DNA of 64,000 nucleotides, taken from assembly GCA_013054445.1 (NCBI GenBank), contig JAAMPI010000109.1, positions 1-64,000 on the forward strand, in the 5' to 3' direction. Positions within the stretch are counted from its first letter, which is position 1, and every line of letters starts with the position of its first letter. The notes beneath the pieces were generated by a model, which worked only from the letters and a program-made list of their open reading frames with translations, was not told the origin of the DNA and did not search any database. Positions 23,139 to 55,426 of this stretch are shown here, in pieces. The position numbers and the translations under genes are program-made. The stretch is from Cudoniella acicularis (lineage: Eukaryota > Ascomycota > Leotiomycetes > Helotiales > Helotiaceae).

Positions 23139-23262
23139 TTGATCTAGACATAAAGAAGGTTGAGGTCAAAGAACCACATACCACACCTCTAACTGGGGAT
23201 ATCGAGGATACCGTCTTTGATCCAGAAGAGCAAAATAAGGTTTTCCAGAAGATATTAATATA
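23139..23262 (+). pseudogene. MFS permease N-terminal fragment (relic)
   Basis: A frame reading EVKEPHTTPLTGDIEDTVFD then PEEQNKVFQKI resembles the cytosolic N-terminus of fungal Dal5/ACS-type permeases, where an acidic stretch and a DP-E motif precede the first helix. Instead of helix 1 the sequence enters an A/T block with stops in all frames. No ATG is in frame. I take it as the 5' remnant of a transporter gene cut by a repeat. The match is short, so identification is tentative. Confidence 0.4.
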
Positions 23263-23506
23263 AGTCTTAATATTATTATGTTAAGTATTAGAAAAAAGAA
23301 TAGAGATAATATTTATTATTATAAAGACATTTTAAATACGTTCTTTAAACTATTTTTTTTTTAGAGAAAGAGATTAGCTTATAAAAAAAAAGATATTAAT
23401 AGATAAAAAAGTTTTAGTTATAAAACTAATCTCTAGTTCTAGAGAATCTAGAAAATCTTTCTTTTTATTAGTTATCTACTTTTAATAAGAAGCCGATATT
23501 ATAATC

Positions 23507-23543
<37 letters not shown>

Positions 23544-23600
23544 TAATATAATATATATAATAAAATTCCGATTTAATCGTCGGCCTTAGGCTACTTTAGC
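23255..23600. repeat. AT-rich RIP-like island with (TAA)n microsatellite
   Basis: About 350 bp of mostly A/T sequence. Near 23507-23541 a run of about a dozen TAA/AAT triplets forms a microsatellite. The rest is TA-rich like the islands at 5 kb and 57 kb. No coding frame survives. Confidence 0.6.
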
Positions 23601-24281
23601 CGAATATATAATGAAACATATAATTAAAAAATCGACTAATTGATTAGTAATAATCTATTGCTGGTACTTATAATAACGTTAAAGGCAGCCGTAACTGCTT
23701 TGCGAACATGACTATTGGTCGCGCGAATTAACGGGCCGTAAACTTTATACTATAATACGATTAGAAGGGTTCGGAAAAGAGATCTCATTTCACTTTTGTT
23801 ATTTTTTTTTTGTATTGTAGAAGCGGGCGGTCCAATTATCTAAGCATCGATTTTTAAATGCTGTATGTATAATTAAGGTTTATATGAATGAAGCGTCATG
23901 CTCAAAGACTGCAGAAAAGCCTCGTATATTCATGCAGACATTGCGCCAGGAATTTCACTAGCTAGACACATTAGAAGAAAAATGCCTGTTATATTTCGTA
24001 GCTGTGTCTCTCGGAGAAAGGATCGTCGATTGTTATTATTTCTCTATCCAAGAACCAGAACAATAGCAATGTTCCTGTGTTTATCTTAATTCCAAGACAC
24101 CGCCAGCCACCTTGAATACTATTTACCAAGTTCCAATAACGCCGAAGATGCTACCCATACTCAAATTGGACCCCTGACGTAGCACCCAGTATGTATACAT
24201 ATTCCGTCCTGCCCGACCTTGCCTGTTCCTACCATGCCAACGCCATGATTTACCAATTCGTCAATCGCAGACCCTCCCGCC
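23601..24281. other. Intergenic
   Basis: Mixed composition grading from the AT-rich island to normal DNA. No gene seen. It ends at the 3' end of the lipid-transfer protein gene, read leftward. Confidence 0.4.
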
Positions 24282-27238
24282 TCACACCCCAGCATCTTCA
24301 TCCACTAAAACAGTTTTGGCCCTCGCCTCTTCCTCTTGGGCTGCTATCCAAGATGGCAATTTGTGGCTATCTTCTTCAGGACTGCTTGAGAGCACCCGAG
24401 GTGGTAGTCTCCTTTTAGGCAAGCGAGGGGGCTCAGGACTAACATTACGTTCCTTGATCGGCGGATTAGCCTTTTCTTCCTTTGCCTCTTCTGCGTCAAC
24501 TTCAGCATCCTCGACCCATGGCCGGATGTATGTTGGCATGCTCTCACTCATAGGAGTCGTAGGCTCAGAATCGAGAGCTGGAGCGGCAACGACAAAAAGC
24601 CCGTCATCGGTATGCTCATGAGAATCCTGTGCCTGATCTCGGCTTCGTCGTTTAGGCAGTGGAGGTGGTGGGAGCGTGTGTCGTGGAGTTGGCTCTTTGA
24701 TCTCATCCTTGTGTCTTTGGGGTAGACTAGGTGGGGCGATAGGCTTCCGTTTGGGAACTGGAATTGGTGCTGTCTTCGTTTTCTTGTCAGGCGGAGGCAA
24801 AGGTACTCCTGGAGGTGGCAGAGGTTGTCCACGGCCCATAACCAAGGGACGAGAATGCTTCTCGAAGTCCTCTGCGGATCCATCTAATTTCTGGTCACCG
24901 TGCCGCTGGATATTCCATCCCCATTTTTTGGCAGTTGTGGCAGCTGCACTTGTGACGGCCGCCAGAGACAACCGCTTGACCTCGCTTGGTGTCGAACTTC
25001 CAGAAGATGATGCAGTGTCTTGTCTTCGATCCCAAGAGAATGATCCCAAGGACTTCGGTGTTTGATTTTCGGATTTGAATGATGTGATGCTTGCACTAGC
25101 TGGACTCGGAGGATAAGGGCTGCTGTGGATGCTCCTGTCAATGTCCGAAGTAGCGATCGAAGCTTGGGGAGTCAGTTCATTTTGCGATCCGGAATTCAAA
25201 TGCAGTGACTCGCGTGAAGATACTGAAGACTGGCTGCCCGACTTCTCAACTCTAGTGGACTTTGCTGGGGAGCCGACCGGTGTTTGGACTGGCGAATTAT
25301 TTTGAGAGAGGGCAGATATTGCAGCCATAGCAGCAACCGCGTGGCTATGCTCTGGTGGGGTAGAGCTTTTGATCGCATCGGCATTGATGCTATCAGTTCC
25401 AACTATTGGTGATGAAGCACTAGCAAAGGAGCCAGATCGAAGGACTCTCGGTTTTTCAGGAGTTGATGTTTTCGTTTCCACGCTGGAGGATGCTCCGCTG
25501 GATTTCGTGCTGGAAAGATCCAAAACAGACTTCGCACCCTTTCGCTGGTGAGCTGTGTTGGGAACTGAAGCATCGATGGCAGGCATGCTCATGCTCTTTT
25601 CCATCTGCGGTAGAGCCATGATTGACTCCTCGCCCTCTAATTGCTCTACCTCATCCACATCACCGTTTTGCGATGCAGCAGTTTCGAGATCCTGAGATTG
25701 GCTTGCCACCCTGCCATCAGCCCAAATACCCCCTCTCCAGAGTTGAGTCTCGGTCTGATAAAATGGAGAGTCATCCCAATTTGGAAAAACAAGACTCTCG
25801 GCCACAACTTCCTTGATCCGATTTTCAATTTGACGTAGAATTAAGGTGTATGTAATTTGCCTCGAACTCACAATTGGCTCTATAGTCATGTCGATTTTCG
25901 GCATCGTCGAGAATGTTATCCAAAAACGATTCGAAGGTGGTGGCTTAATCCTCAACATCATGTGCCCTTCGGCCCTCTTCACTACGACTGCTAAAAGAAG
26001 ATTTACTTCTCTAGCCTTGAATCGTGAACCTAGCTCTATGCGAGCTGTAGCTGCTACCTCGATTCTGAAGTTTCCCGTGTATCGGACATCTGCTTCTACG
26101 ACCATTTCACCGTCCACTGTTAGCTCCTTGAGACGAGGGTTTGTGATAACTGGTGCAGCCGATCCAGTATCGATATTTCTTAGGGAAATTTTCGAGAGGA
26201 AAGACGGTGTCTTCACTCGGGAGATCTTCTTGGTAATCTTGGACCGGATGAAGTTCTCGACCTCGGGAGCCTTGTACAAGCCAGAAATAACCTGCCAATT
26301 ATAGCATTAACCCATCTTGTCTGCAGATGCTCTTCTGAAGAGTGTAGCCTCTGAACCAACGTTATAATATCCTTGACATCATATTGCAATGGTGATGGCG
26401 GGTTGTTCTCGGCGTCTGGTCTTCGCTCCTGGTTTCGTAGCAAGGCGAAATAGAAGTCTTCTTTTTCTGAGCAGTTTTCCGAAAAGAGGTAGAAGGGTTT
26501 TGAGGCTTTCCCGTCTGGCGTAAGTTCCCCCACATCGGTCCTTCTCGAAAGACACAAGGCATTCCTCTTTATGAATAGCTCGCCTTCTGGTGTTATATCG
26601 CCGCCCGAGTAAACACTAACATTATGATGGGCCAACGAGACTACATGGCGGACTTCGAGTTGTTCGTCGTCATCGAAGAGCATTAGGTGGCCGTGCCTGC
26701 CGGAGCGGAGGTTAGCATATCTGCTGAAAGATATTTGAAGCAGTAGAAGGGAAGTTTCATACCTCAAAACCACGTAGAACACATTACCACCACGCTTCTG
26801 AGGCCGTCCATTTCCCTTATTATCTAGGGGACTAGTATTCTGTTTCCTTTCGAAAATACTCCTGTACATGCTTTGGTAAACACTGGGGCTTGCTGCAGAA
26901 ACAGTTGTGGACCCTATGGGGGTTGTTCTCTCAGGTGGTTTTCCATTGACCCCGCCTGGTATGTATTCCCGACACACCGCAAAATACCCAGCAGCGACAT
27001 CTGGTTCATGGCCTGTTCGGGGTTGGAATTTCTCTCCTAGTGTTTTCTGCGCCCGCTTAATAGCATCGATATCATCTCCCGGTTGCACAATCGAGTCTGT
27101 GTTGGGTTCTCGGTATGCTGTGTCCTGGTGGATTGGGAATGTGATGTAAGCGTGGAGGAGGACAGCGATGAGGACGAGCGGAATGAAGGTAAAGCCGCCG
27201 AGGATATAGATGAACAAGAAGCCCACCAGGCTGCCCAT
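24282..27238 (-). CDS. nvj2: Nvj2/TEX2-like SMP-domain lipid-transfer protein
   Basis: Start ATG 27238; one 66-bp intron (26762-26697); total about 963 residues. The order matches yeast Nvj2 and human TEX2, tether and lipid-transfer proteins of ER contact sites. An N-terminal membrane anchor (FLFIYILGGFTFIPLVLIAV) comes first, then a linker, then a PH-like domain (about residues 155-275: HGHLMLFDDDEQ, KPFYLFSENC). An SMP domain follows (DIITLVQRLHSSEE, SKITKKISRV, TIEPIVSSRQITYTLI), and last a long Ser/Pro-rich disordered tail. Within the SMP domain, at about 26275-26290, the frame breaks: IIGRLFL is followed by YKAPEVENFI one base out of phase, and no intron fits. The gene is otherwise well preserved, so this is either a one-base sequence error or a recent lesion. 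Confidence 0.82.
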
Positions 27239-36241: not shown

Positions 36242-36940
36242 ATGGGTCATCCAGCAGGTCTTCGCGCCGGTACTCGGGTACGTATTCCCTTTAATCTACA
36301 TGTTCCAGTTATCGCTTCTTTGTCTTTATTTCAAGACATTGGGATTCCATTCTCTGCATTCAGACCTTGTTAACTATTTCCAGTATGCATTTTCCAGACG
36401 ATTCCGCGAGAAGGGTATGATCAAGCTATCTACCTATTTACGCCAATATAAGTGAGTTCTCTGGGTTGGAATTGGGCGCGGGGCGGATTCTAATATGTTG
36501 ATAGAGTCGGAGATATCGTTGACATCAAGGCGAACGGTGCTGTGCAGAAGGGGTCAGTCGTGAACACCAAAAGGACTAATTGAATCGTTGAAGCTAATTA
36601 GCAGAAAAGAATGCCGCATAAGGTTTACCACGGAAAGACTGGTGTCGTCTACAACGTTACGAAGTCCGCCGTCGGTGTCATCATCTACAAGAAGGTCAAG
36701 CACCGGTACATCGAGAAGCGCGTCAATCTCCGAGTCGAGCACGTTTCGCTGTCGCGATCGAGAGAGGAATTCGTCCGTCGGGTCAAGGCCAATGCTGAGC
36801 TGAAGAAGAAGTCAAAGGAGGAGGGTACACACGTCCACTTGAAGAGACAACCAGCGATGCCACGGGAGGCGAGAACCATTTCGATGAAGGACAACGTACC
36901 GGAGACCGTCGTACCGATCGCATACGAGACAACTATTTAA
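36242..36940 (+). CDS. rpl21: 60S ribosomal protein L21 (eL21)
   Basis: Four exons (36242-36277, 36384-36451, 36505-36552, 36610-36940) give 160 residues, exactly the usual size. It is a structural component of the large ribosomal subunit. Family signatures: MGHPAGLRAGTR, then YAFSRRFREKGMIKLSTYL, VGDIVDIKANGAVQKGMPHK, YHGKTGVVYNVTKSAVG and PREARTISM. Introns are 106, 53 and 57 bp; the last ends in AAAG|A, chosen because it restores GMPHKVYHG. Divergent from RPS9. Confidence 0.95.
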
Positions 36941-37845: not shown

Positions 37846-38067
37846 GTAATGCCCACGGACCTCCGACGCCATCGCATTACAGGCACGGCGCCTGACCCCT
37901 TATCACGTGTCCTGGTCCGTGCCAGCACTCACATCCTGTATATAGATCCCTTAAGGGGCACCTCTTCCTTCTCTCCTTATCTGAGTTTCTTCGAAAATAC
38001 AGCACTTTCTTGCAAATACGCCCCACATAACGTCAGGGCCCCCGTGCCTTTGCAGAGCTGTAACATT
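37846..38067 (+). repeat. LTR-like dispersed repeat, copy 2
   Basis: Begins TGTAATG and ends CTGTAACA, and contains the TATA-like stretch CTGTATATAGATCCC. From about 37885 onward it closely matches the reverse complement of 4.66-4.84 kb, sharing TTATCACGTGTC, GTTTCTTCG, ATACAGCA, TTGCAAATACG and GTGCCTTTGCAG. The two copies are about 33 kb apart in opposite orientation. No target-site duplication is obvious. Probably an old solo LTR. Confidence 0.5.
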
Positions 38068-38682
38068 AGATAGTAGAGATAATAATAATTGACGATCATT
38101 TTTCTGAGACATAGCTACGAAATACAAGAGGCATTTGTCTTTTGATGTGCTTGGCTATTGACATTCCTGGCACAGTATAAGCCTTACTATATGAATATAT
38201 GAGGCTATTCTGCCGAGTTTAAGCATCATTCATATAAATTTAATTGTTTAGGTAGCATCTCAAAATAGATCCTAAGACAATTAAACCGCCACTATTGTAG
38301 ACATAACCAGGAAATAACGACCATTTCTCCCAAAAAAGAAAAATAATAAAGGTTAAGATCTCTTTTCTTTCCCGAACCCGTCCAATCGGATTACGGAGTA
38401 GACTTTACAGCCAAACCTTACAGCCACGGCTTTTTAATTCGTGTGATGACTGTCACGTTCGCAGAGAAGTTGCGGCTGCCTTCAGCGCCAACGCCACACA
38501 ATTACGTGGGCCCCTCCGCCAAACCGCGCTAAAGGCTCGTCGGCCTCGTCTCCCCCAAGACATCAACTCAAACACTGTATTTTTCTCGATAGCCTTCGAC
38601 TCTTCCCACATTCATTTTGCAACTAGTTGTTACTATCCTGCGTTGTTGCATCAAGTTTATTGCGCGCTGAGCGCCTGTGAAA
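38068..38682. other. Intergenic, SLA2 promoter
   Basis: A moderately AT-rich start gives way to normal composition upstream of SLA2. No gene seen. Confidence 0.4.
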
Positions 38683-41600
38683 ATGGCTCTTACCTACGCC
38701 CCAACGACGCGAAATGTTGACCACACCAAGTAAGTTGCCCTGCAGCTTCCAATTTCTTATCTATGCAGTGCACCGGTTTTATTTTCACTTCAGCAGACTA
38801 ATTTAATAATACTGTAGGTCTGAGGGTGAGCTTGCGATCAACATCCGAAAAGCAACTAGCATCGAAGAGGCGGCGCCGAAACGCAAGCATGTTCGGAGCT
38901 GCATTGTCTACACGTGGGACCACAAGTCCTCGGGGGCCTTCTGGGCTGGTATGAAAGTGTCAGTCCCATCTTTTGTTCAGTTCAGAAATAATGGCAGATG
39001 TGTAAGAGCTTTGAAATTGAGCTTCTATGCCGGAAATCCCGCGAAAATATAACTGGCCGCGTTGATGAAATTACGGAGCACGAGGCTGATGATAATTGAT
39101 CTCAATACAGGCAGCCTATTCTTGCAGATGAAGTGCAAACTTTCAAGGCTCTAATTACGGTCCACAAAATACTACAAGAAGGGCACCCAGCCACTTTGCG
39201 AGAAGCAATGGCAAATCGAAATTGGATCGATAGTCTGAACAGAGGCATGTCGGGGGAGGGTTTGCGAGGATACGGCCCATTGATTAAGGAATACGTGAAC
39301 TTTCTTCTTGCGAAGCTATCTTTCCATAGCCAGCATCCGGATTTCAATGGCACATTCGAATACGAAGAATACATCAGCTTGAAGGGAATTAATGATCCAA
39401 ATGAAGGCTATGAAACGATTTCCGACCTAATGGCCTTACAAGACAGAATTGAACAATTTCAGAAGCTAATCTTCTCGCACTTTCGTGGTGGTGGAAATAA
39501 TGAATGTAGGATATCAGCACTGGTACCACTGGTGCAGGAGAGCTATGGAATCTACAAGTTTATTACCAGCATGCTTCGGGCTATGCATACAAGTAGGCTT
39601 GGGCGCTTTTACTATGCCTTCTATATTCTGACGTTATATAGCTACCGGTGACGACGATGCCCTCGAGCCGCTGAGATCAAGATACGATGCCCAACATTAC
39701 CGTCTTGTCAAGTTCTATTACGAATGCTCCAATCTACGATACCTTACAAGTCTAATCACTGTCCCCAAGCTCCCTCAAGACCCTCCAAGTCTCCTCGCTG
39801 AAGACGAATCCGCCCCTCAATTGCCTCAAAGACCTAGGCAAGAAATTGAAAAACAAATCACACCTCCGCCAGCACCCAAAGCAGAGGAGCCAGATGATAT
39901 TGGAGAATTCTGGAAGAACGAGCAAGCTCGGCAGAATAGAGAGTATGAGGAACAACAAAGGGTACTCGAGGAGCGCCAGGCACAGCAGCTGTACACCCAA
40001 CAGCAGGCAGCTCTCCAAGCCCAGCGAGATTTCGAGGAGCAGCAACGACTATTAGCAGAGCAACAGAGGCGGGAACAAGAAGCTCTCTTAGCTCAACAAT
40101 ACCAACAACAAACTCAAGGTCGTATGGCGCAACTGGAACAAGAGAACTTTGATGCTCGCGCCCAATATGCCCGTGATCAGCTTATGCTTCAGCAGTACGA
40201 TCAAAAGATCAAGGCTCTGGAGGGAGAGCTCAACCAACTCCAGCAAAACTACAGTCAACAGATTGGAAGCAAAGACGACCAGATCAGGGCACTGCAAGAA
40301 CAAGTCAACACGTGGAGAACGAAATACGAAGCTCTTGCCAAGCTATACTCGCAGTTGCGTCACGAGCATCTGGATCTGCTCCAGAAATTCAAGAGTGTGC
40401 AGCTCAAAGCTGCCTCGGCACAAGAAGCGATTGATAAACGAGAGAAACTCGAGCGGGAGATAAAGACGAAGAATCTTGAGCTTGCCGATATGATCCGGGA
40501 AAGAGATCGTGCCTTGCATGACAAGGATCGACTGACTGGCGGAAACCGAGAAGAGTTAGAGAAGCTCAAGCGGGAGTTACGAATGGCTCTTGACCGTGCT
40601 GACAATCTAGAACGCAGTAAGGGCAACGAGCTCTCTTCAATGCTGTCTAAATACAATCGTGAAATGGCAGATCTTGAAGAGGCTCTTCGAAAGAAATCTC
40701 GTGCCCTTGACGAGGTCCACGCCAAGTACAGCGAAGGTGGCTCGGACGCTGAGCGTTTATTGAGGGAGAAGGAAGACGAGCTGGAGGTGTACAAGCAAAG
40801 CTTGGATGATACTCTCCTCAAGCTCAACGAGCTGGAAATGTCCCGAGGCGCTACCGATCAAGCCTTGGATGGAGAGATTGATGCTATGCTTCTGTCAAAC
40901 ATTGGCAAGATTAATGATATTATCGACTCTGTTCTGCAAAGTGGGGTTCAAAGAGTTGATGACGCCCTTTATGAGCTCGACTCTTCCATGCAGGCAGGTA
41001 ATCAGAATGCAACGCCATCTTATGTCCTGTCCCAGATCGAGAAAGCATCTTCCAGTACGACAGAATTCGCAGCCTCGTTTAACAACTTTATTGCGGACGG
41101 CCCCAACAGTAGCCACGCTGAGATCATTCGCACCATCAATGTCTTCTCAAGTTCGATTGCTGATGTTCTCAGCAACACCAAAGGTCTTCAACGACTTGCC
41201 ACGGATGATAAAAAGGCAGATCAACTCATTAATACCGCACGTCAATCTGCACAATCTACTGTTAGGTTCTTCCGCAGCCTTCAAAGCTACCGGTTAGATG
41301 GCATGGAACCCGAACAGAAATTGGAAGTCGTTCTCAACTGCATGAACGAGGTACACATCAATCTGCAGAAGCTCAACAAGCTCGTAGATACATTCGCCCC
41401 GAGCGGCGGCAGGCTGGTCAATAATAAAGGTGACTTGGGTGATCTTGTCGACAATGAGTTGAACAAAGCTGCAGACGCAATCGCCGCCGCCGCAGCCAGG
41501 CTAGCAAAGCTCAAGTCAAAACCCAGAGATGGATTTTCAACATATGAGTTGCGCATTCATGATTCTATCCTGAATGCCGCGATGGCTGTCACGAGTGCCA

Positions 41601-42195
41601 TTGCTAGGCTGATCAAGGCTGCAACCGTCACCCAAAACGAGATTGTGCAGGCTGGCAGAGGCTCAAGTGATAAGACAACGTTCTACAAGAAAAACAACCG
41701 ATGGACCGAAGGCCTGATATCCGCCGCTAAAGCGGTTGCTTCGTCGACAAACACATTGATTGAGAGCGCGGATGGAGTTCTGTCTGGTCGCAACACTCCT
41801 GAACAACTTATCGTTGCTTCCAACAATGTTGCGGCATCTACGGCACAACTTGTCGCAGCAAGCAGAGTCAAGGCAGGCTTCATGAGCAAGAGTCAAGAAT
41901 CTTTGGAGGAGGCCAGCAAAGCAGTGGGAGCAGCATGTCGCTCATTGGTCCGGCAAGTGCAAAGTATGATCAAGGATCGTTCAACGGATGAGGATGGAGT
42001 GGATTACGCAAAGCTGGGCGCCCACGAATTCAAAGTTCGAGAGATGGAACAACAGGTTCGCATGATTTGTCTCTCCGTGAAAGAGTTGATAGCTAACATG
42101 TGTGCAATTAGGTCGAGATTCTCCAGCTGGAGAACAACTTAGCGGCAGCACGGCAGAGATTGGGAGAGATGAGAAAGATATCCTATCAGGAGTAG
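38683..42195 (+). CDS. sla2: SLA2/END4 endocytic actin-clathrin adaptor
   Basis: Five exons (38683-38729, 38818-38958, 39111-39592, 39642-42055, 42112-42195) give 1055 residues, as usual for Sla2/Hip1R. It links clathrin coats and membrane lipid to actin at endocytic sites. The N-terminal ANTH domain is plain (SIEEAAPKRKHVRSCIVYTW, VQPILADEVQTFKALITVH, YEYISLKGINDP-like block). A long Gln/Glu-rich coiled coil occupies about residues 330-620. The C-terminal talin/I-LWEQ (THATCH) domain follows, containing RWTEGLISAAKAVASST. The final short exon supplies VEILQLENNLAAARQRLGEM. It is the conserved left flank of the MAT locus in most filamentous ascomycetes. Confidence 0.95.
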
Positions 42196-44123
42196 GTTTG
42201 ATATCATGGCTGCGGGGATTAGTGTGAATAGTATTGTATCTACGTTATTGAGTCAGTAGGTTGCAGTGGCTTTTCTAAAATGCAAACATATTGCTATGCA
42301 AGGAGATTCGAAAAGTAACGCTGTCCTGTTGGAGGAAAACTACCCCATCTATGTTAATAGGCATGAAGTGACTTTGGCCAGATGTCAAGTGTTATAAAGG
42401 CTTGTCTACAAATTCGAAGTCAGTGCTGACAAACAAAACTGTCTCACCCCTTTCACTAAGTTGAATTACTGTCGAAAGTAGCTGTTGCCCATTTACCCAG
42501 TAATCCTGTTTACCTATGATTTCCCCTCAATTTCACTTTACCCACAGGTCAGCAGAATTTTGAAAGATACTGCCCAGAGATCAGAACTGTACCGGTGCTT
42601 TGCTGCAGCGCAGTTGGATGCAGAGATCTACGCAAAGGAGTACCTGAAAATCACTAATTATGCTAGCACGGCAGCCTTCATTGGCCCCAGAGACTCTACG
42701 AAAAGGGCAGCCATTGGCCGAGTTTCTAGACCAAGGAGTGCGAAATTTACAGGGGAATGCGGGGAGGTCTTGAGCTCCCGCTCAGGAAGCTGCAGCCGTG
42801 TTCTTGGGTGCCAAGGCCCAGGTGAGGGAAGGATTCGGGTACCACCCTGGTTGCATTAGCTTGCAGGCAACGCCAGCTTTATTTTCACGACATGGCAACA
42901 AAGAAAACTTCGTTTCGTGGCGGATGAGAAGAACGAATCGGGGAGTGCTTTTTATGACCTTTGTTAATTGATTCGCTATGGCACACTAGGAAAAAAAGAT
43001 GGCTGCTGGGTACATTCGATCGAGGGCCGCCTGTTCCTCTTCCTCCAATCATACCGAGTAAACCTATGATACCGTCCTTCCGAAACCTTTCCCAAATCGT
43101 GCTACAGGCAGGAAAAGGGGATATTAGCTGTAAGATACAGGCTTGATGCCAAGCAGACCTTGTGGGTTTGATGAAATGCGTGCTGCCGTAACAGCTCAAT
43201 GGATTTTCCGATTTTCCGATTTCCGTAGAGGGATGCATATGCTGACACAAAGATAGCTTCCTCCTAATAAATGTTACCATGCAGGGTGGACTTGAGGTTT
43301 CAAGCTTCGACGCAGGAACCATGTGATTCTAGTAAAGGTCGAGCTAGCTCTCGTTGTCCGGTACTGAGAGAGAAAGTCAGCCAGTATTCATAAACTTGGA
43401 TCGAGTCGACTTACCGTTTGGAGTCATGTAACCTTCCTGAAGACCTCCGTTCTCCAACAGATCACCAAAATTAAGACATTATGTATTTCGGGCAGCATCA
43501 TTGCTACATAGTTGTCTAGCATCTACCACTTGTGGGGATTCAAACAGAGAGCGAAAAGGTATGCAGTGATTTCCTTGCTATGCTCTTTTAGATGAGGCTC
43601 CATGACTTTTAATGCCCATGTTGGGCTCGCTGGTAGCAGCTTTCTGGACGTTTTAAGACACCTGACTCGTTGGCAAATATTTACAGCCAAATCATGATCA
43701 AACATACAACGATTAAAATTATTTTGTACAATCAGGTATGTTACCCCAGAGAGTGGAAAACCTAAACATACACAGTTTCCAATGTCGAAAAGGGAGCGTG
43801 ACCGAGTCAAGTCTATCTTCACCTCGAATTTGGGGAGTAAGCAGCACTAACAACAGTTTTTCTCACTCCTATCAATCCCCACCAGAAAGAGTGATTTTAC
43901 AAGAAAGATATAGTGGCTACCTGCATTCTTTTCTGAGACACAAAACATAGGTTATTCTCGAAGTTTAGCAATTGTAAATGCACTGGTGGCAACTATGCAC
44001 CGGTATTCATTTGATGAAAAAAGTTTTGTCATGTAACGATTGACGCTTATTTGTGAAGCACTGGCGCTGCACTGATGCGCTGCTTTCGCTGCCTAGCAAC
44101 TACAGTTTCGTCAGCAAAGGCAC
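42196..44123. other. Intergenic between SLA2 and MAT idiomorph genes
   Basis: Probably contains the left border of the idiomorph, which cannot be placed from one strain. Two open frames on the minus strand deserve mention. One is 43322-42885 (145 codons with an ATG). The other is 43822-43523 (99 codons, no ATG, ending around MEPHLKEHSKEITAYLF), which looks somewhat protein-like. Neither matches a MAT family I know; I saw no alpha-box. Confidence 0.4.
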
Positions 44124-45237
44124 TCACAAATACGCTTCTAGAAACTCACGCATGAGGCCAATCCCCAATTCTGACAAGTTAGGTAGAACTGGCAGGCGTC
44201 GCACATTTCCGAACACATCCCGCGCATCCTCTTTAGGGACAAAGCTCGCGATGAATGAAATCTCCGTAGGATTCTCGGCACCGATCCATCTGCTGCGCCC
44301 GTCGATGTATCGCATAATTTTTGAAAACATTTCGCACTCATAGAGATATCTTGTGCCAAGCTTCAGCTCATCAACGAATCTCATTATCACGCTGTGGATC
44401 TTGTTAGGCCTATCTCATTTCAAAAAGTCTTGGGAAACCTACTTTCGGATATCTCTACGGATGCTCATTCTCTGGGCCGAAGGTAACCAGGCTATTGGAT
44501 CTTCTCTGCCAAATTTCATGCACAGAAGTGTAGCCTCAAATTTGATGTAGTGGTCTCCAAGTGCTTTCTCAAGGTTGACCAGTCTATCAAATTGCATAAG
44601 GTGCTTCTCCGCGATGCCCTCTAAATCAAACTTTATATCATACTTCACAAGTCCGATGCCACAGTCAGCCTGCGGGGCTTGGATATTATCGTCTTCACCC
44701 TTGCTGACCTTCTCAATGCTGAGTTCGGAGCCTTCATTGTCAATTTTCATGTCCTCGTCATCAATTTCAGCGTCATCGTCGTCGAGCTGGAACTCCTCCG
44801 CAAAGGTGCTCAACTCGGCAAGCCAATTTTGAACAGTTATCTTTCCGCTTTAGGATTTAATCTCTTGGGTTTGCAACAATGTTTTGATCGTATTTGGCGG
44901 TACCATAGTTGTGAAGTCTGGAGATACTCGCGAAATAAATTTTAGTTGTGTATTCGACGAGGTGTTGCTGGCTTGGAAAGAAATTCAAGGACTTATAAGA
45001 TCCCAGAGGGTTGGAGATAGATCGTTCTGGTATTCATTGTGCATAGGTGCGCTTATTTGCTGATTTGCCGGAAATCTCTAGCCGCGAAAAGTGAATCTTG
45101 AGGTGTCTTGATTCGGGAAAGGGGACAAAGAACTTGTGCGGCTCCTCACCTTTGAATCTCGCTTGGCCAAGTCTCTCCTCAATCATCATTGTTGCTCCGA
45201 TCTCTTCAACCTCTGAGCCAAGATTCGCAACAATCAT
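44124..45237 (-). CDS. Putative second MAT1-2 idiomorph gene, structure unsettled
   Basis: The well-supported part is exon 44840-44443, a 51-bp intron with a CTAAC branch site, and exon 44391-44124. It encodes about 222 residues with an acidic stretch after STFAEEFQLDDDDAEID, then YIKFEATLLCMKFGRE and LGTRYLYECEMFSKIM. I recognise no domain. Upstream, the frame starting at ATG 44906 meets an in-frame TAA at 44850-44852, bypassed only if a 63-bp intron directly follows that ATG. Further upstream another frame starts at ATG 45237 (MIVANLGSEVEEIGA), hits TGA near 45034, then stays open to about 44855. A GTGAGG donor near 45150 could skip the stop. The position between SLA2 and MAT1-2-1, opposite strand, matches where some Leotiomycetes carry an extra gene (MAT1-2-4, later called MAT1-2-10). 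Orthology is inferred from position only; the gene may be partly degenerate. Confidence 0.5.
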
Positions 45238-45246
45238 CTCGCCGCA

Positions 45247-46440
45247 ATGTCGACCCCTCAACAACAACAAACAGTTCCAGTCGGACTCGGCTTGGTACGC
45301 ATGACTTCTAACGCCGCAATGCTCTGGGGCCATTTGTCTATGCAACTCAGCGCCGCAAACACTGTCATTACCATGCATAACTGGGAGTTTGCGACCTTCT
45401 CTGACTCTCTAGATCTGAGTTCAGCTTTAACATGCTACAAGTAAGTTTGACTCCTACTTCATCAACTTTTCACACATGCTGAGAGTATGCAGAGAGGTGG
45501 TTCAAGTTGATGGTATGTTTGTTAGAGATGGAGTTCTTCCTCGTGTTTTCCTCGGTCCTGCCGTGTGGTTCAACACTCAAAACGTTGTTCACTACCCCAA
45601 TGGGCTACCTGTACTTCAGCCTTACCCATCGACGGACCCTGGCATTTACAATAGCCCAACTCCTGAAGGAGTCGAGAGAAGCACTGGAGAGACTCGTGAA
45701 GAGGGCAAGAAGAGCAAGATTCCTCGACCTCCAAATGCCTTCATTCTCTATCGCAAGCATCACCATGCCTCCGTCGTCCGACAAAATCCTGGCAAGCACA
45801 ACAATCAAATCTGTAAGTAGAAGAAGCCCCTAGCTTTTTTTCCCCGCAGTACTGACGACTTTTAGCGACTATCATTGGCAGGATGTGGGCTCTTGAGAGT
45901 GCCGAGGTCCTTGCTCTATTCAAAGCCAAGGCGGAGCAAGCAAAGCTGGACCATCTTCAAAAATACCCTGGATACCAATACCAACCACGCAAGCCTTCAG
46001 AGAAGAAGCGCCGTGCCAAGAAGCCTCGAGTCGCTCAAACTGCTAGTGCCATTGCCGCAGAGAAATTCGCCAAGACTCCCCAAGACTCTGGCAAAAACAC
46101 ATTTGTCGAGGCAGAAGGCCATGTCACTCTCACCTTCCCTCTTTCCGAGAAGACTAGCAAGGCTGTTGTCGAACATAACAAGAGTACCAGCCCATTGTCT
46201 GCCGCTGCTCCTTCAGCTACTGGTAGTCAAATCAATATTTCTGCTCATACCGAAGCTACCGATATGTTCGATGTCGCTGCCTTTGGCTACACTGGTCCTC
46301 TCGATTTCACCGACTTCGATAACACCGCTCTTGCCTTGGATGGCGGCCTCGGAGCAACTTTCAGCGCTGATTACTTTGATGACTTGGTCAACATATTCGA
46401 CACTGGTTCTCCATGGGAGAATTCCACTTTCTTTGCTTAA
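45247..46440 (+). CDS. MAT1-2-1: Mating-type protein MAT1-2-1 (HMG box)
   Basis: Three exons (45247-45440, 45493-45812, 45866-46440) give 362 residues. This transcription factor sets the MAT1-2 mating identity and controls pheromone and fertilisation genes in the nucleus. The MATA_HMG box spans about residues 140-214: KIPRPPNAFILYRKHHH, then HNNQIS split by an intron, then IIGRMWALESAEV, ending near YPGYQYQPRKP. The intron falls inside the codon for Ser (T|CG), the conserved position in ascomycete MAT HMG genes. Upstream residues AAMLWGHLSMQLSAANTVIT are also typical of the family. The start at 45247 leaves only 9 bases to an opposing ATG at 45237. A second Met (MTSNAAMLW, 45301) is an alternative start. 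Flanked by SLA2 and APN2. Confidence 0.93.
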
Positions 46441-48066
46441 ATTTTCATGAGAAAACCCCTATGCCGTTACTTCGCATGCATGCCTGCTCATATTTCAGAC
46501 CGCTATTCCTCATGCAAGTCTATGGTACCACGGTCTTCAATTTGTCTCCATCATCAAGGATCGGCTCTCGGCACTAAAATCAGCATTCTATTCTTCATCA
46601 TTTCTGTCTCGGCATTGTCATCACGATACTCCCGTGGGTGGAACTTCAATTTACGACTCAACCCTCTCCAGCATATGAAAATACCCTTCCAACAACATCA
46701 GAACCTGCACCAGACGTAGCCCGCTACTGTTTGCATCTCGCAGTTTCAATATCGCCATCTTTCGACTTGGGGAGCTTGACTTTGGTCTCGCTGCTCGAAG
46801 ACTGGATATCGGAACGGACAGTATTTTACAGCAGTTTTCCTTTTATTCTTGTGCTTTTGTATCGTATTCGTGTTTTTTTTCGTGCTCTTGCTTCTGGCCC
46901 ACGAATCTCGCTGAAGTCAAGCACATTATTGTATTCAGGAAGAAACGGAGGATATCCAAATTGGCGCAACGAGCAAACCAGAGGGGGATTTCAATGGTAT
47001 AGGACCCATTTATTTCTTGTGTCCTTAGGATCTCTCGGTGGAAGGGCGTGTGGTATCAGGGAAAGCAAAGCCGAAATTGGTTTCTTTGGCTCGGCGGCGG
47101 AGAAAACAATCACAATGATCCACTGTATTCATTGTTTTCTTAGTTTAGTAAATGGTTTCTTCGGCATCCGGCAAGCATCATGAGCTGGAGTATGGGGGGA
47201 GGCACTGGTTTCGGCGACGGCTCTCTTGCGCTTTACTCAGATACCCAGAGAGTCAAATAAAATCAATTAAAGCAAAATCATTTTCTTAATAGTGACTGCA
47301 ATGCTTCTAAAAACTAAATCTACAAAGCCTGTGAAGGCTGCGTTGTGGCGTTGTGCACCTATGCTTTCGCCCAATTCTGCTTCCAAAATGCGAAGGTGAA
47401 GTTTGGAGCGCAGAACCTAGCCTTGTTGCCGTGTCAATAGTGAATGCTGCAGTTGCCCGTTTCAGATTTCGTGGGGCCTCGGAATCGTTTGTGTGGGAAA
47501 AGCTCCCACCGCCTTATTTTGAGCTACAAACGGCAAAAAGGCGGTGGCTGGAAACCTAAGGCAGCGGTAGAACAATGCTAGCTAAACTGGAAGGCTGAGG
47601 CGAAAATCCGTTGAATGTTGCTAAGGAAATATGATATTGAATTGGAAAATTGGGAAATGTGCGCAGGGGTCATGTGATTGATATCAGAGGCGACAATGCT
47701 GCAGTCTGGGCTTAAGAGAATGCTGCCGAGCAATGCAGCGAAATACTGCGCTTATATATATCCTTGCTCTTCCGAGCTCTAATACATACATCTTGATATT
47801 GCAATGCAATTCCAATATGTTCCATTTTTGGCTTGCCCCTTTCCTGAGTGCTAAGGCAGATGCTCCTGATCTTGGCATTTGGCCCCAACTCGCCTCACAG
47901 ATATATTTTTCGGGTATCAATTAATGTCGCGATCGTCAGTTCGCGTCTTTAAATTGATAATCAGCATTTCATGTTCTTGAAAGCGATGGAAATCTTCGAT
48001 ACCTTCATGCAGAGGAATTCTCGTGAGCCAGAGCCAAGGGGCTGGGCCCTTCCAAGTGCAGGCCCT
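46441..48066. other. Intergenic between MAT1-2-1 and APN2
   Basis: Includes the 3' UTR of MAT1-2-1. The longest frame (46638-47183, plus) lacks an ATG at its start and has no recognisable motif. The right border of the idiomorph probably lies in this stretch or within the 3' end of APN2. Confidence 0.4.
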
Positions 48067-50216
48067 TCAAGTGCCATCACCAGTCCAATCACTGCTCCAT
48101 ATAAATGTATTACATCGCCACTGGGTGTTTTTTTCCTTCTGGCCCGAAGGCCCTAGGGGTCGCGGACACATGTAGAAAGATCTACCACAGTTGACTCCCG
48201 GCTTCTTTGTGAGCATACTGACGCATGGCTCATTGTGTTCGCATCTAGGAACTACACGTTTCCCCAAAAGCTTCGACCATGATTCCTTGGCGGCAATGGG
48301 ATCAACAACGCTTTTCTGATCAGCAGGATTGAACTTCTTGCTTGGTGTTGAATTCTCCTGGTTCTTCGCAGCGGATTCAGGGAGCAAAGATTCTGGGACA
48401 GCAAACTCCGATGAAGTTTCGACAGGTGTTGCATTGTCCGAAGGTTGATATGCCTCAGATAATGACGACGCTTCACTTCCTCCTTGATCATTTGTTTGGG
48501 GGGTTTTAGGTTTGAAGAAGCCCATTAGGCTACTTTGCCCCTTTCCCTGCTGAGTCTTGCCATTCGTCGCCGACTTCGTTGAGTTCCCAGATTTGCCACG
48601 CTTTTGAGGTCGGCCTGTGCCGTTCATCTCCATTGGCCGTTTCGACTTAACAGGGCTATTAAAAGAAGATGCTTGCGACTCGCTCTTTGTTGTATATGCT
48701 GCTGCTTCAGATACCTCAGTAGCTTGAGAATGCTCGCAAGAGAGCTCTGTTCCTTGTACAGCCCAGTCTCTGGCAGAAGTTTGCTTTCTTTTTCTTGTCC
48801 TTGCGAATCAATGTCTGACATCGACAACGAGCCCTCTTTGGTGGATAATGACGGCTTCTTGGTAAACATATCGCGGATGCTTCGTCGCCGATCAAATTCT
48901 GGAATAAGTTTCGCTGACATCGGCAGAAGATCTTTGATAGACCACTCTCGTTTCTTGATTCCTCCTTGGAACATGCCATTGCTCATCAAGTCTTTTATGT
49001 AAACCTCATGACCATTTACTTCCACCTTGTCCTTGAATACGGCATACACTGGACAGTGATCAGAGCCCATTAGACCTTCTTGAATGTTTGATTCGGAAAA
49101 CCAATCATGCATATCCACGCTGCAAAGAATGTAGTCAATTCGAGAGCCAAAGTTTCCCGGTCGAGCATTGATCTTTTGTTCCCAGCATGTGAACATGCCT
49201 TGGCGCTTTGGGTGAAAGGATCTGCAAATATCCCACATGACTGCCCGTTCCCTCCCTTCGTCTCTTTCGCCAATAACTTTCCCATCAACAACGAGCTGGT
49301 TGAGCATACGTCTCGCTGGGGTGGATAGATATTGCTCGGATGTTATGCCTTGTCTCCTCAGCTGCTCTTCTGCTTTGGCTGTATCCAGTTCATCTCGGAT
49401 GATGTTCAAGTCCCCAGTCAAGAAAACTCTTTTACCCTGTGCTATGAGATTGCGGACCCGGGCGTCCAAGGCAGTGAGAAAGCCAATTCGGAATTCGTCT
49501 CGAGTCTCGTCACGATTTGCTGGGCAATAGGTCCCGATGAGTACAAAAGCAGGAAACTCGAGGACTACACAACGACCTTCTGAATCAAGAGTGGCGGCAT
49601 CAAGAGCGCAATCGCAAAGCTGGCTGCCAAGAGGATATCCGCCAATCTGCTGATCTTGAGGGAGATCACGAAAGCTTGTTGTGGAGTTGGGAGGGGTCAA
49701 GATCCCAGTGATGCCTTCCTCAGCTCGGATTGGGGCACAAACGGCATTTCGAGTATAGATGGCAACTCCAGAATAACCTTCAAGGTGGAATGAGTCAATA
49801 ATTCTAGGTATTGTTGAGAATCACTTGCCTTTCTTGTGCTTTGGTAGACTGAAATACACATCCCATCCGGGAACAAGAACCATATCATCTTGAAGGTCTT
49901 TACGCTGAATCTTGGTTTCTTGCATGACCACGATATCGGCTTCCAGGATCTCGAACATGGCCTGCAGACCAGTTAGCATGACCATTTGATGAAGCAATAC
50001 AAGTCCTCAACATGCAGCAAAAGTCCTTTCTTGACGCCATGGTTGATAGCCAAACGGATTTCTTTCTCGGATCAGTACGAAAGCTATACAGGCTTCAAAA
50101 GAGGCCCAACAAACCTGATCCCATTCACTGGCACAAGTTAGTCTCTATTCATCAAAGCTAGTGCATGCAGACTCGCCGTTCCATGTCGTGATTCGAAGAC
50201 CTCGTCGTTCCTCCAT
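48067..50216 (-). CDS. apn2: AP endonuclease 2 (DNA lyase) APN2
   Basis: Six exons (50216-50177, 50127-50115, 50061-50016, 49961-49829, 49777-48715, 48655-48067) give 627 residues. It repairs abasic sites and 3' blocks in the nucleus. The exonuclease-endonuclease-phosphatase core shows LRITTWNVNGIRNPFGYQPW, the metal-binding Glu of VVMQETK, FLTGDLNIIRDELD, RIDYILCS and the catalytic GSDHCPVYA. A PCNA-binding motif QSSLMGFF (QxxLxxFF) and a C-terminal GRF zinc finger (CEHNEPC...FYMCPRP...RCNTFIW) follow, as in other Apn2 proteins. Three of five introns appear to start with GC, and exon 2 is 13 nt; both are forced by conserved residues. Conserved right flank of MAT; starts 287 bp from COX13 on the other strand. 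Confidence 0.93.
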
Positions 50217-50503
50217 TCTTTACTTAGGATCGGTTTCTGACCGATATTTGAAATTAAAAGGCATCCCCCTCTTCACTCCTCATGCAACAAATTCAACTAG
50301 AACAAGATTCAGTAAGACATCAAGTCACGTCGCTCAAGAGAAGCGCGTTTCCGTTGTCGCGAAAATGACCCGTCGTCACCATTAAACACGTGACTCGCCA
50401 AATCCCGGTAGTCGCTTCCTGAGCTCTCCGGAAATCAGCAAACAACGTACGACACCCAAACCTTCAATTGAGCACAACGATCAATTGAACCACCAACGAC
50501 GCC

Positions 50504-51189
50504 ATGTTCCCCCAACGCACGATGCTTCGAAATTCCCAGCGCTTTGCTGCTAAGCTGCGCTCACCAGCTGTGCGCCAGCCTGCCCAACGACGATTCGCGA
50601 GCGCTGAGAGCTCTGGATTCCACGGTGCCGAGGATAATGCTTTCAACCGGGAGAGAAAGGCCGTGAAGGACCATGCGGCTGCTACAAGTGGTGCGTAGCA
50701 AGAGGAGAGCTGTCCGAAGGTGAAGCTAACGATTGGCAGATCTCTGGCGCAAGCTTTCCATCTAGTAAGAGTTCCTTGGTGGAGGGGTGATGGGTTTGAG
50801 GGAAAATGGTACGACACCATGAAGGGGAGCTGACATGAACAGCGCGACCATTCCTGCCTTACTGATTGCTGGCGCCAATGCATACAGACTTTGGAACGAG
50901 CATTGGGAGCATTGGGAACACCTGGAGCCTTTGGAGGAAAGACCTGAGTACCCATACCAAAACTTGAGAATCAGGAACTTCTTCTGGGGAGATGGAGACA
51001 AGGTGAGTCTTCCCCAATCCCTTTGAAATTGAAAGGGGCCTGACTTTTGAATACAGACTCTGTTGTAAGTACTACGAACAAAGATCAACCCACGAAGACT
51101 GGAATGGGGCATGGCCTGAAGAAGGCACATGAGCTGAACTGACTTTGAATAGCTGGAACGATAAGGTCAACTACCACAAGAAGCAATAG
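50504..51189 (+). CDS. cox13: Cytochrome c oxidase subunit VIa (COX13)
   Basis: Five exons (50504-50690, 50740-50764, 50843-51002, 51057-51064, 51153-51189) give 138 residues. It is a small inner-membrane subunit of respiratory complex IV. An Arg-rich mitochondrial presequence (MLRNSQRFAAKLRSP...RRFASAE) leads to LWRKLSIYATIPALLIAGA, the single membrane span, then HWEHWEHLEPLEERPEYPYQ and the family end FFWGDGDKTLFWNDKVNYH. Exon 4 is only 8 nt (51057-51064) and is needed to code TLF. COX13 between APN2 and APC5 is standard at ascomycete MAT loci. Confidence 0.93.
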
Positions 51190-51725
51190 AGGTCGGGAGT
51201 GACTTCAGACCTCGGGCTCTAGTTGTCGCGAAGTAACGAGCAAAGGGAGGAAGTATGTGGCTGATAGAGGTGGGGTTGCTTGAGCCGGTAGACTGGTTGT
51301 ACATTTCTCTTTGAGTCCTAGCAATATCAGAAGTTGAAAACCCCATATATCCACACAACCCTTGATCTTCGTGTTCATACTATTATCTCCAATTTATATC
51401 TCAGGTCGGAGATGGGTTTTTAATTCGTGGTCGACTCCATATATCATAGGATCATATCATCTCTCATGGCAACAATTTTTGTGGTGCGATGATCTGTTAG
51501 CTGCCCCGAGCTGCACAGGAGAGAGTGGCCAAACGAAAAACTGTTGTTGGAGACAGGGTACGCAGAAAGATTTTGGGATGCTGATTCCAGCATACATGAA
51601 ACCTCAATCAGTAAGGACACAAGTTACTTTAAGTTCAAGACACACCAACACCTTGGAACAAAAAATTCTACAACGGAGAAGATTTAAGTCATAGTTCCAA
51701 AGTTTATTTATGGGTATCATCAAAT
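51190..51725. other. Intergenic between COX13 and APC5
   Basis: Convergent 3' ends. The open frame at 51362-51694 shows no recognisable motif. Confidence 0.45.
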
Positions 51726-54156
51726 CTAAGCCTCTTCCAACACCGCCTCCTTTTTCAAGTCCAAGTAAGCACTTGCATAATCATTTGCCAAGACCTTTTC
51801 ACCCATCACTCTCATGATGGTGGCCTTTTTGGCCATCATTTCACATTGACCCTTAATATCCTCGATCGCAGAATACTCGCTGAATGACCTGTCGATATAT
51901 TCCAGACACTTGGTCAAATTCTCTTTCCGCTTCAGGCTTCCACTCTCGGCCTGACCTGCTAAGCCCATGTGCGAATCGACGAGGAAGGAATAGAGTTGTG
52001 CGTTTGTTGAGCAGTTCTCACACTCTAAGGCCCGAGGTATAACAGATACTAATATTTGTGACGCGGCCTGGAACTCGGAGAGCGAGTTTAGGATGTTCGC
52101 GATGGCGCCCGTGGCGATCCATAGCGCTGGGATTAGCCTGGCTCGCCATGCTATACTCGTAGCTCGAACTGCTACTGAGAAGCCCTTCTGAGGACGACCG
52201 GATTTCTGTTGCAGCATCGCCTTCATAGTAAGCAGCTTAACTCTCAAGTTGATATCATCGCCCTCGGCCTGCATTTGCGAAGCTAGCTGTTCGACTTTAG
52301 CCAACGCTTTGCCGTAGTCAGTTCTTCTTATCAGATAATCAATATGAAGGCTGTTTATTTCGAATGAGAGTTCCGGGTCGGTGTCAATGCCGTTGGACTG
52401 CAGGAGTTGTGAAAGGAGTTGATCTGCTCCATTCAAATTATTCTTGTGAAGATCCCATTTCAATCGAAGAATACCACGGTACTTCAACCAGTACTGGTTG
52501 GCTTTCCATGACCGCAAAGAGTTCTCATCCAAGTTATCCACCCACTTCATAGCCTCTTCATATCGTCCCTTTTCTGCTAGGAGATGTGCGATGCGGCATG
52601 TAAATCGTAAGGCATCGTCGAAAAGCGCAAAGCGTGCGTAGCAGCTTAAGAATATTTCGCAATACTCTCTCGACAAATGTGCCACTCCTAAGCGTCCCCA
52701 TATTGATGAGCACATGGCCATCTGTGGCCCCATCATGCTCTTCATGTTTTTGTCCACAATGAGTTGTGAACTCTTCAGAATATTTTCGAAAACCGTTGCA
52801 ATACTCTCTCCGCTAGACATGCCCAGCTTTGCCTCGCTTAAAAGAGAAGAACTCAAAAGGGTCCACATCCCAGTCTCTTTGGCCTTCACACGCAAAAAAG
52901 CAAGGCTTTCTCTTTCAACCCCAAGCATGCTGGTTGATTCGGACCCAGGGATAAGCTTGGGGTGTGCTTTGCCAAAGTGGTATAGCCAGTTTAGAGCAAA
53001 ATTCAAACAGGGCATGTCTTTATTTTCTCGGGCAGTGGAAACAGTTTCCAACATCGCAGCAACAGCTTCGTCAAAACATCCAAAATCTGCTTGAAGCACT
53101 GCAAGATTCATCAGAGCGTACTGGTAGAAAAGACGATCTCTGTTGTTCATAGTATAGTCGAAGTATCGATGAAGACTGTCAAACGACGTGGGATAGTCGC
53201 CGGCCCTCCAAGCATCAAGAAAGCTGCTATAGTGTTAGCCAATAATGGCAAAGAGACAGGCCACACTTACTTCAAGTAATGGGATAAGCTGGGGACCATA
53301 ATGCTTTCTTCCATAACTGCCTTGAACTTGTCTTTAACCTCGAATGGTATCCTGTTGCCGAATTCTAAGTATTTTAGTAAATGACTTTGAAGCAGAACTT
53401 CTTGGGGGACTCACTCTGCATCTGCTCAACCTGGAATTCCAACAACTTTTCCACGTCATCTGTGCTGACACACCCTTCTTCTGGCCCCCTAGGGTCGTCC
53501 ATACCATAAGCCACTAGTTCCAGCATCTCTGTTGCGTCTGGGCCCCAATCTTCCTCTCCCTCCTCCAAAGCCTTGTCCCCAGCCCATCTTCCCAACGCAC
53601 CGTTCCGTCTCGAGTAGTAGGTATTTGTTGACTGTCGCCACTTTGCGAAAGCTATCCACAATGCAAGGGCGTCACAGAATCTTAAACGCTCGAATTCAAC
53701 TTTGGCTCTGCGGACAAAGCTTCCAAAGGGGGACGTTCTGGAGAGGAGAACCATATCTGGAGAAGGGGGAGGGATTCCGAGTTCGCCATCCTTCTTGATG
53801 TCATCGGGCGTCTTAGCTAGCAGATTTGTTCGATTCGCAAAGAATTCGTGCAAAGCGTTTAGACTATCTATGCCCCATAGCTTCTTAAGGAACTGGTCCC
53901 ACAAGGTTCGGCCGGGGAAGCCAGAGGCTGCTGGATGCGCGGCAAGGAGAGTTTCGAAGGCATTAAGGTCGAGAAGGAATGGCAGATCTTCTAATGATTT
54001 GGAGCTTCGCGCCTGCGTCTTTACGGTAGAAGGTATGAGTTGGTTAAGTATGAACGACAAGATTGGGATTGTGGACGAAGTCGGGACAACAGATTCGGTA
54101 TAGAGCTCGACAAGAGCCAGAAGGCCAATTTTCGAGGGGGTTAGGAAGCGCGTCAT
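51726..54156 (-). CDS. apc5: Anaphase-promoting complex subunit 5 (APC5)
   Basis: Three exons (54156-53415, 53364-53271, 53226-51726) give 778 residues. APC5 is a TPR-type scaffold of the nuclear ubiquitin ligase that drives anaphase and mitotic exit. The N-terminus MTRFLTPSKIGLLALVELY and the region HRYFDYTMNNRDRLFYQYAL, NLAVLQADFGCFDEAVAAML are characteristic; the rest is helical repeats (SREYCEIFLSCYARFALFDD; LFRWE-like hydrophobic spacing). Introns are 50 and 44 bp, GT/AG, in phase. It is the last member of the conserved MAT right flank in this window. Confidence 0.9.
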
Positions 54157-55426
54157 GGCGGCGGATTAAAGAGCTGTTTTGGAAGGTAAAATCGGATCTC
54201 CATCTCCGTACTCAGATCAAACCGTGATGTTGTTGCGATTTGTCGCTTCAAGAAGTTTGTTGACGCGCTGACGCGAATTGCTCTTTCTTCCTGTGGCGGA
54301 ACTGCCCCGCATCCACCCCTGTCTTTCCCAACTTTCACTTCATGGCTTTCTTCTCCAGAATCAAAAACAATCACATCATGAAAACGTGTCAGGTGAGAGA
54401 TTTTTGCCCCAAAACTGAGGACAAGACCCTGAAGGCTCCATTTCTTGAAAAAGAGTAGATTCAGGCCTCGAAATAGTTGCAGGAGCTCCAGCGAGTGATT
54501 CAAAGACTGAAGCAACTTCCTCTTTTATTTCATAATCGTATAAATTCATACTCTGCAATAATAGAACTGTAACTATTGAGACTTTCTCAAACAGGTTCTA
54601 GATTCCTCTTTTGCAAAGTTCTTCGTTTCCCCTTAGCTTTTCTCCCTACCCTCTGCCGAATGGCAAAGATTTCTGCTCTAACATCTATGCGTCAGAACAC
54701 ACTAGAAAATCCAAACTTCCTTTGCACATCCTGAATACCTATCAAATGAACTACTTTTACAGAGTTTTGCCATTACCTCAAATAAGTCTTTTTATTCAGA
54801 ACGTGGTTCACACTGCTATACGTTTCACGAACTTACAAGACCAAAGGAGAGTGAGTATTGTACTCGCTGCCTGCTTGCTCATGTATATTGATTATACGCT
54901 TTCCCATGCCTTCAATCCCTTTCAAGACCGGCGGCTCCGAGATATCACCCTTTCCCGAAAACAACAAAAGACACCAGTCCAGATTCCTAAGCTCACCATA
55001 TGCCTCGAAACAATCAAAGTCTTCTCCGATTGCTTCTGTCGCTACCGACACATCACGGTCTGTAGGTCCCACATCGAACACCGCAAATTAAAAATCGACG
55101 CAAACCCGTGCCCGAAGCTCAGAGGAAGTATTCGAACCGTAGATGGAGGTTGTGAGGAGAGTCCTTGTCTTCAGAAGAAGAGGGTTGGTTACAAGTTTGA
55201 GTCAAAGAAATACGAGACCAGCAACGACAGTGGTAAGGCTTCCGCTTTGGAGGTCTTGAATCCCATGAGATAGGAGCGCGGAGAACTACTGATGAGATTT
55301 GGAGGGGATGATGGCGATCTGGACTTGGGATGGCAGGCGCTGTTTGAGCTACCTTTATGAATCCTTACAGTAGGGTAGCTTTCCATCAATATGAAGTTTT
55401 TACATTTGATTTCACATATATTACAC
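54157..55426. other. Region with unresolved overlapping ORFs
   Basis: A 220-codon plus frame (54611-55273, first ATG at 54748) overlaps minus frames at 55081-54833 and 55479-55189. Some, such as TDRDVSVATEAIGEDFDCFE on the minus strand, look protein-like, but I could not join them into a convincing gene. Another minus frame at 54558-54376 begins MQSMNLYDYEIKEEVASVFE just upstream of APC5. A small intron-containing gene on the minus strand is possible. Confidence 0.35.

Follow-up and report, generated by a model that had tools for sequence, protein, structure and literature searches.

A MAT1-2 locus in classical order, an alpha-box gene on a second contig and a candidate invertible segment in Cudoniella acicularis

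What mating system is encoded in the genome of Cudoniella acicularis, a fungus placed by NCBI in Leotiomycetes, Helotiales, Helotiaceae? The window analyzed here, 64,000 nucleotides of contig JAAMPI010000109.1 (C102), carries a mating-type locus of the MAT1-2 kind between SLA2 and APN2, while the alpha-box gene MAT1-1-1 resides on another contig of the same assembly (C1357), where perfect inverted repeats enclose a segment containing the start of that gene. The interpretation we favor, as the probable though by no means certain one, is that C. acicularis has two MAT loci, that the segment on C1357 is invertible and toggles the strain between an alpha-plus-HMG and an HMG-only state, and that two genes termed X and Y here, one at each locus, are accessory mating genes. 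That the segment inverts in life and thereby sets the mating state is what we infer from this arrangement. The textbook MAT1-2 annotation becomes a case in which mating-type switching can be tested beyond the Sclerotiniaceae, with an invertible unit of another make-up, and if the module flips, this would be a new route by which one genome gives rise to two mating types.

Within the window, domain searches and exon mapping yield the classical order SLA2 (+), MAT1-2-1 (+), APN2 (-), COX13 (+) and APC5 (-), bearing out the order and orientation proposed in an initial annotation of this DNA. MAT1-2-1 occupies 45247..46440 on the plus strand, and its three-exon model (45247-45440, 45493-45812, 45866-46440) gives the public C. 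acicularis protein G7Y89_g2484 without a single difference. The gene has an intact HMG box (PF00505, 65.7 bits), and named MAT1-2-1 proteins, such as that of Hymenoscyphus albidus (E 4.8e-49), are found among its 331 relatives, of which the best 120 were used for comparisons. The product groups with mating HMG proteins, as the initial annotation had supposed, and not with non-mating ones. With an HMG-box MAT1-2-1 between SLA2 and APN2, the locus has the build of a MAT1-2 locus of Pezizomycotina.

The initial annotation had seen only the HMG idiomorph, which it considered consistent with heterothallism, with the caveat that an alpha-box gene might lie elsewhere. The caveat was justified: a search of the assembly for the alpha box located one such gene, at C1357:7307-7696 (PF04769, E 6.4e-27), the full-length public protein of which (P0004, G7Y89_g7857; 487 amino acids) has an alpha box of 121.8 bits. 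As a gene, the MAT1-1-1 of C. acicularis is not new; it is already mentioned by Wilson et al., 2023 (PMC10569646). The proposed MAT1-2 identity of the strain therefore stands for the locus at SLA2-APN2 and not for the genome, in which, at the level of the assembly, MAT1-1-1 and MAT1-2-1 occur together as in homothallic species, whereas a heterothallic genome would be free of any gene of the opposite idiomorph. Because the alpha box belongs to the same assembly and the tests for a mixed assembly, described below, were negative, the genome cannot be described as MAT1-2 alone, and its set of MAT genes is that of a homothallic fungus. We reject heterothallism for the sequenced genome on the evidence of the alpha-box gene, the single matches of SLA2 and APN2 and the number of MCM matches.

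C1357 comprises 32,035 bases, and comparison of ten frames from its first 20 kb with Pfam returned one alpha box and three other hits (AAA, DUF7730 and SNF2-helicase). No match to SLA2 or APN2 was found on this contig, which extends for 6.8 kb on one side of the MAT gene and for more than 21 kb on the other, and the DNA that it has in common with the window consists of short dispersed repeats only. Likewise, an HMG-box MAT1-2-1 was not found on C1357 in tblastn searches with six MAT1-2-1 or like proteins at E values up to 1, the lone match being 23 residues long (E 0.38, 13081-13149) and outside the inverted-repeat segment.

The arrangement that suggests a switch lies within MAT1-1-1 itself. 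Two inverted copies of 329 bp, 100% identical, are located at C1357:7789-8117 and 10027-10355, and no further copies were found in the whole genome. Between them lies a 1.9-kb segment (C1357:8118-10026) with the MAT1-1-1 start codon, a divergent promoter and gene Y. The left arm codes for residues 85-194 of MAT1-1-1, its end at residue 194 adjoining the alpha box, for which the Pfam alignment begins at residue 189. In the assembled orientation MAT1-1-1 is intact; upon flipping the segment in silico, the MAT1-1-1 start reads into a 295-residue protein lacking the alpha box, while the alpha half comes to follow an open stretch of 79 codons that contains one ATG. Compared with Tricladium varicosporioides, MAT1-1-1 of C. 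acicularis is 69% identical in the repeat-coded part, 84% in the N-terminus and 82% in the rest. As the two arms are identical although the stretch they code for diverges faster, the duplication is either recent or the arms are kept equal. In the mechanism we propose, homologous recombination between the 329-bp arms would flip C1357:8118-10026 and separate the alpha box from its start and promoter, such that the strain would switch from alpha plus HMG to HMG alone and back, in the manner of Sclerotinia sclerotiorum, with X and Y acting as accessory mating genes, one per locus.

In S. sclerotiorum, 250-bp repeats that are part of MAT1-1-1 are described to flank a 3.6-kb inversion truncating the alpha box (PMC3574095). 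As in that species and in Ciboria shiraiana, the perfect inverted repeat of C. acicularis is a piece of MAT1-1-1, with one arm inside the gene, the gene set is homothallic, and inversion would break MAT1-1-1 at the alpha box. However, S. sclerotiorum has a single MAT locus between APN2 and SLA2, and its segment inverts MAT1-2-1 together with MAT1-2-4 and truncates MAT1-1-1 at the 3' end (PMC3574095), whereas C. acicularis has two loci and a segment that contains the 5' head of MAT1-1-1, the promoter and gene Y; no MAT1-2 gene was found on it, although its head is still homologous to that of MAT1-2-1. The likeness to the Sclerotinia inversion is thus close, while the flipping unit is different. 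No mention of an inverted repeat of this kind in C. acicularis was found in the literature searched, which included passages of PMC10569646.

Several points weigh against a switch of this kind. The second orientation of the segment was not found in the one assembly available. The tail that would replace the alpha half gives no coding signal (codon score -0.12), and an open stretch of its size is expected by chance in 0.6-3.5%; the test is a weak one, however, as the repeat arm, although it codes within MAT1-1-1, reaches only -0.22. C1357 ends after 32 kb, separate from C102, and there is a small chance that the culture was mixed. For the accessory genes, neither X nor P0003, the orthologue of Y in T. 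varicosporioides, has a Pfam match, and the structure models are unusable, with a mean predicted local distance difference test (pLDDT) score of 34 for X and 37 for P0003. The frame after the right arm, which is unique in the genome, was considered as an alternative coding tail and rejected, as codon use lends it no support in the same weak test. In the public model P0002 (G7Y89_g7858), gene Y runs on into the right repeat arm and this frame; the fusion is probably a misprediction, given that the T. varicosporioides orthologue ends differently.

The strongest competitor, to which we assign a real but clearly smaller chance, is primary homothallism without switching: two separate MAT loci would both be expressed, and the inverted repeat would be an inert recent duplication. 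The single orientation in the assembly agrees with this, and Hymenoscyphus fructigenus provides a precedent, having MAT1-2-1 at SLA2/APN2, like C. acicularis, and MAT1-1-1 elsewhere among hypothetical genes, the two loci being unlinked (PMC10569646). H. fructigenus differs in possessing MAT1-1-3, and the passages of that paper considered here do not speak of an inverted repeat in this species. What speaks against an inert duplication is that a perfect 329-bp copy lies precisely at the alpha-box border, within an otherwise faster-diverging stretch, along with the Sclerotinia precedent itself.

What, then, would be the origin of the segment that flips in the switch we favor? Over its first ~85 residues, the MAT1-1-1 protein of C1357 aligns with the N-terminal part of MAT1-2-1, with shuffle z-scores of 15.7 for H. 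albidus, 8.4 for the window protein, 6.1 for Coleophoma and 5.1 for P0012. There was no signal against the Pseudogymnoascus HMG protein P0060, nor in controls with P0001, P0003 and the MAT1-1-1 of Halenospora varia. In 101 of the best 120 of the 331 relatives, the HMG start can be recognized and the N-terminus is 50 residues or longer; five of these 101 exceed a z of 5 for the head. Intron 1 falls on the same aligned codon (55 versus 65) and is in phase 2 in both C. acicularis MAT genes. Judged by sequence, the head of the flippable segment is homologous to the head of MAT1-2-1. The H. varia MAT1-1-1 is headless as annotated and may have been annotated without its first exon. A tree of seven head sequences (supports 38-98) does not place the MAT1-1-1 head inside the MAT1-2-1 heads, and its scores with the Claviceps MAT1-2-1 heads (68-98) and with H. 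albidus (93-100) render it about equally near to both. Since these scores are similar and the tree leaves the direction of exchange unsettled, the head may be an old domain common to both gene types rather than the product of a recent fusion. The homology of the heads raises the question of why an alpha-box protein has a head related to that of an HMG protein.

A second relationship between the two loci is that of genes X and Y. Gene X (public G7Y89_g2483, P0001; 251 amino acids), absent from the initial annotation, is divergent from MAT1-2-1 and maps to 44050..45189 on the minus strand, with the first and last exons of the public protein uncertain and an alternative model of ours ending at about 44124; gene Y is divergent from MAT1-1-1 on C1357. 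Y is the sole relative of X detected in the genome (E 5.2e-6 with a 136-residue piece), and with a shuffle z of 16.7 the comparison shows the two to be homologous. In our models they have an intron at nearly the same place, in phase 2 in X and phase 0 in Y. While Y has an orthologue in T. varicosporioides (P0003, 68% identical), none was returned for X in a profile search that required shared five-residue words and found three proteins, from C. acicularis and T. varicosporioides only; given this requirement, the result leaves orthology of X and Y to MAT1-2-10 and MAT1-1-5 possible. The latter are the Botrytis cinerea pair, likewise one accessory gene of unknown function per idiomorph, and deletion of either MAT1-1-5 or MAT1-2-10 stops the step from stipe to disk, a shared phenotype for which the genes of the two idiomorphs have been proposed to act together (PMC5821092). 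The homology between X and Y is a difference from the B. cinerea pair, and the accessory mating role of X and Y is a putative one. If X and Y stand for the Botrytis genes, common descent would explain the shared phenotype. The homology of X and Y also suggests why an accessory gene can be present in either idiomorph.

Between SLA2 and X, tblastn and a shuffle test point to a further element absent from the initial annotation, at 43344..43476 on the minus strand (ends approximate). It consists of ~20 codons, a 51-nt intron (GTAAGT...CTGAC...CAG) and six codons with a stop. One of seven query proteins, the H. varia MAT1-1-1, matched it in tblastn (10/15 residues identical, E 0.024), and the joined reading gave z-scores of 10.7 with the C-terminus of H. 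varia, 5.5 with T. varicosporioides, 3.0 with the C1357 protein, 2.3 with P0008 and 0.6 with P0006, two of these five C-termini thus showing no clear match. It is probably a remnant of a MAT1-1-1 3' end with its last intron, and its closest match is H. varia, not the gene on C1357. The MAT1-2 idiomorph of B. cinerea is likewise described as bordered by a dead MAT1-1-1 fragment (PMC3158057); in contrast to B. cinerea, the C. acicularis assembly also holds an intact MAT1-1-1, and the relic resembles the C-terminus of this gene less than it resembles the H. varia one.

With this relic, the two loci appear as mirror images: in the window the order is relic (-), X (-), head (+), HMG (+), as against alpha tail (-), head (-), Y (+) on C1357, such that the module of head and accessory gene has opposite orientations relative to the MAT1-1-1 tail. 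Because of this mirror order, one can conceive of an invertible module of head, promoter and accessory gene in the Cudoniella/Tricladium lineage that joins either an alpha or an HMG tail; the C. acicularis loci would be its two ancestral orientations and T. varicosporioides would have the working switch, flipping of which would swap the DNA-binding half of a single mating-type gene. We regard this scenario as rather unlikely, the mirror order being suggestive only. At the window's own joint of head and HMG part, only short imperfect repeats were found (19-27 nt at 70-85%). In T. varicosporioides, a MAT1-1-1 (P0005) with 82% identity to that of C. acicularis, gene Y (P0003) and an HMG protein (P0011) appear to lie on one contig of length 2,529,518. 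Its alpha gene bears the head, while its HMG gene lacks one as annotated, perhaps by mistake. The identity of P0011 to the window MAT1-2-1 is no more than 51%, which counts against the reading of the C. acicularis assembly as one genome.

Could the two loci of the proposed switch instead stem from different nuclei? In a heterothallic species, a culture with nuclei of both MAT1-1 and MAT1-2 type, whether mixed or heterokaryotic, would yield C1357 as the other idiomorph, or as a contaminant. Wilson et al. warn of mixed cultures where MAT genes are on separate contigs (PMC10569646), and the disparity between MAT1-2-1 (51%) and MAT1-1-1 (82%) in identity to the T. varicosporioides counterparts would fit such an origin. 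An allelic idiomorph should, however, have SLA2 and APN2 as flanks; C1357 matches neither, and both have a single genomic match, on C102 only (searched with a C-terminal 836-residue piece of SLA2 and a 398-residue piece of APN2), as genome matches to the COX13 family are also confined to C102. MCM proteins gave six matches on six contigs; six is the number expected for one genome. The TCP1 family, with 14 exon matches on nine contigs, one of which, in a 2163-codon frame, we take to be FAB1, shows no excess. A 187-bp repeat of C1357 (23837-24023) recurs almost in full on 39 other contigs (39 copies, 94-99% identity, with 40 of 486 candidates scored), and the GC content is alike between C1357 and the window contig. 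Four public proteins, G7Y89_g2483 and G7Y89_g2484 from the window and G7Y89_g7857 and G7Y89_g7858 from C1357, all bear the name of C. acicularis. The single SLA2 and APN2, the six MCM matches and the shared repeat speak for one genome rather than a mixture, and T. varicosporioides also has both MAT genes, apparently on one contig. Contamination by a second fungus finds no support in the TCP1 count, the MCM count or the shared repeat, and we deem a mixed origin improbable. Less credible still is an assembly artefact, for which the fragmentation into 1836 contigs and two single N in C1357 might be invoked, since distinct sequence borders both sides of each arm, each arm has two sharp ends that one chimeric join would not give, and the assembler would have had to make two separate errors with coinciding ends.

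Regarding other mating genes, the HMG profile has seven matches in the genome on six contigs, none on C1357. MAT1-1-3 was not identified as a further HMG gene among the four HMG loci viewed in forward frames, a set that leaves out C66, and the match on C425 reads like what we presume to be a general HMG protein of the NHP6 type, whereas the other three loci viewed revealed nothing recognizable. STE2 could not be annotated in C. acicularis by Wilson et al. (PMC10569646). However, stop-free pieces of this receptor are present at C8:3898-4924; together they span positions 5-279 of the profile, although the last of them scores below the cut-off. Loss of STE2 was therefore not used as a sign of homothallism.

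Within the window, SLA2, the left flank of the MAT1-2 locus, spans 38683..42197 on the plus strand, with ANTH and I/LWEQ (I_LWEQ) domains in frames 39100-42142 and the start taken from the initial annotation. APN2 (Exo_endo_phos, PF03372) lies at 48067..50150 on the minus strand, both ends approximate. COX13 follows at 50573..51002 on the plus strand, its outer ends approximate and its PF02046 match in two pieces, 50573-50701 (26.8 bits) and 50844-51002 (89.3 bits), the first containing one stop, as expected of an intron. APC5 (ANAPC5 domain, PF12862) occupies 51726..54165 on the minus strand, with an approximate 5' end. The window MAT1-2-1 (45247-46440) lacks the C-terminal stretch (ending ...GWI or ...GWIS) seen in its H. 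albidus and T. varicosporioides counterparts. A short dispersed repeat family is represented in the window at 4655-4843, 23826-24051 and 37891-38290, and on C1357 at 18933-19054 and 23836-24023; the GC content of C1357 falls to 36-39% in parts of 18000-26000, as in repeat-rich, point-mutated fungal DNA. Finally, a piece of a ribosomal protein L21e gene is located to the left of SLA2, at 36602-36940.

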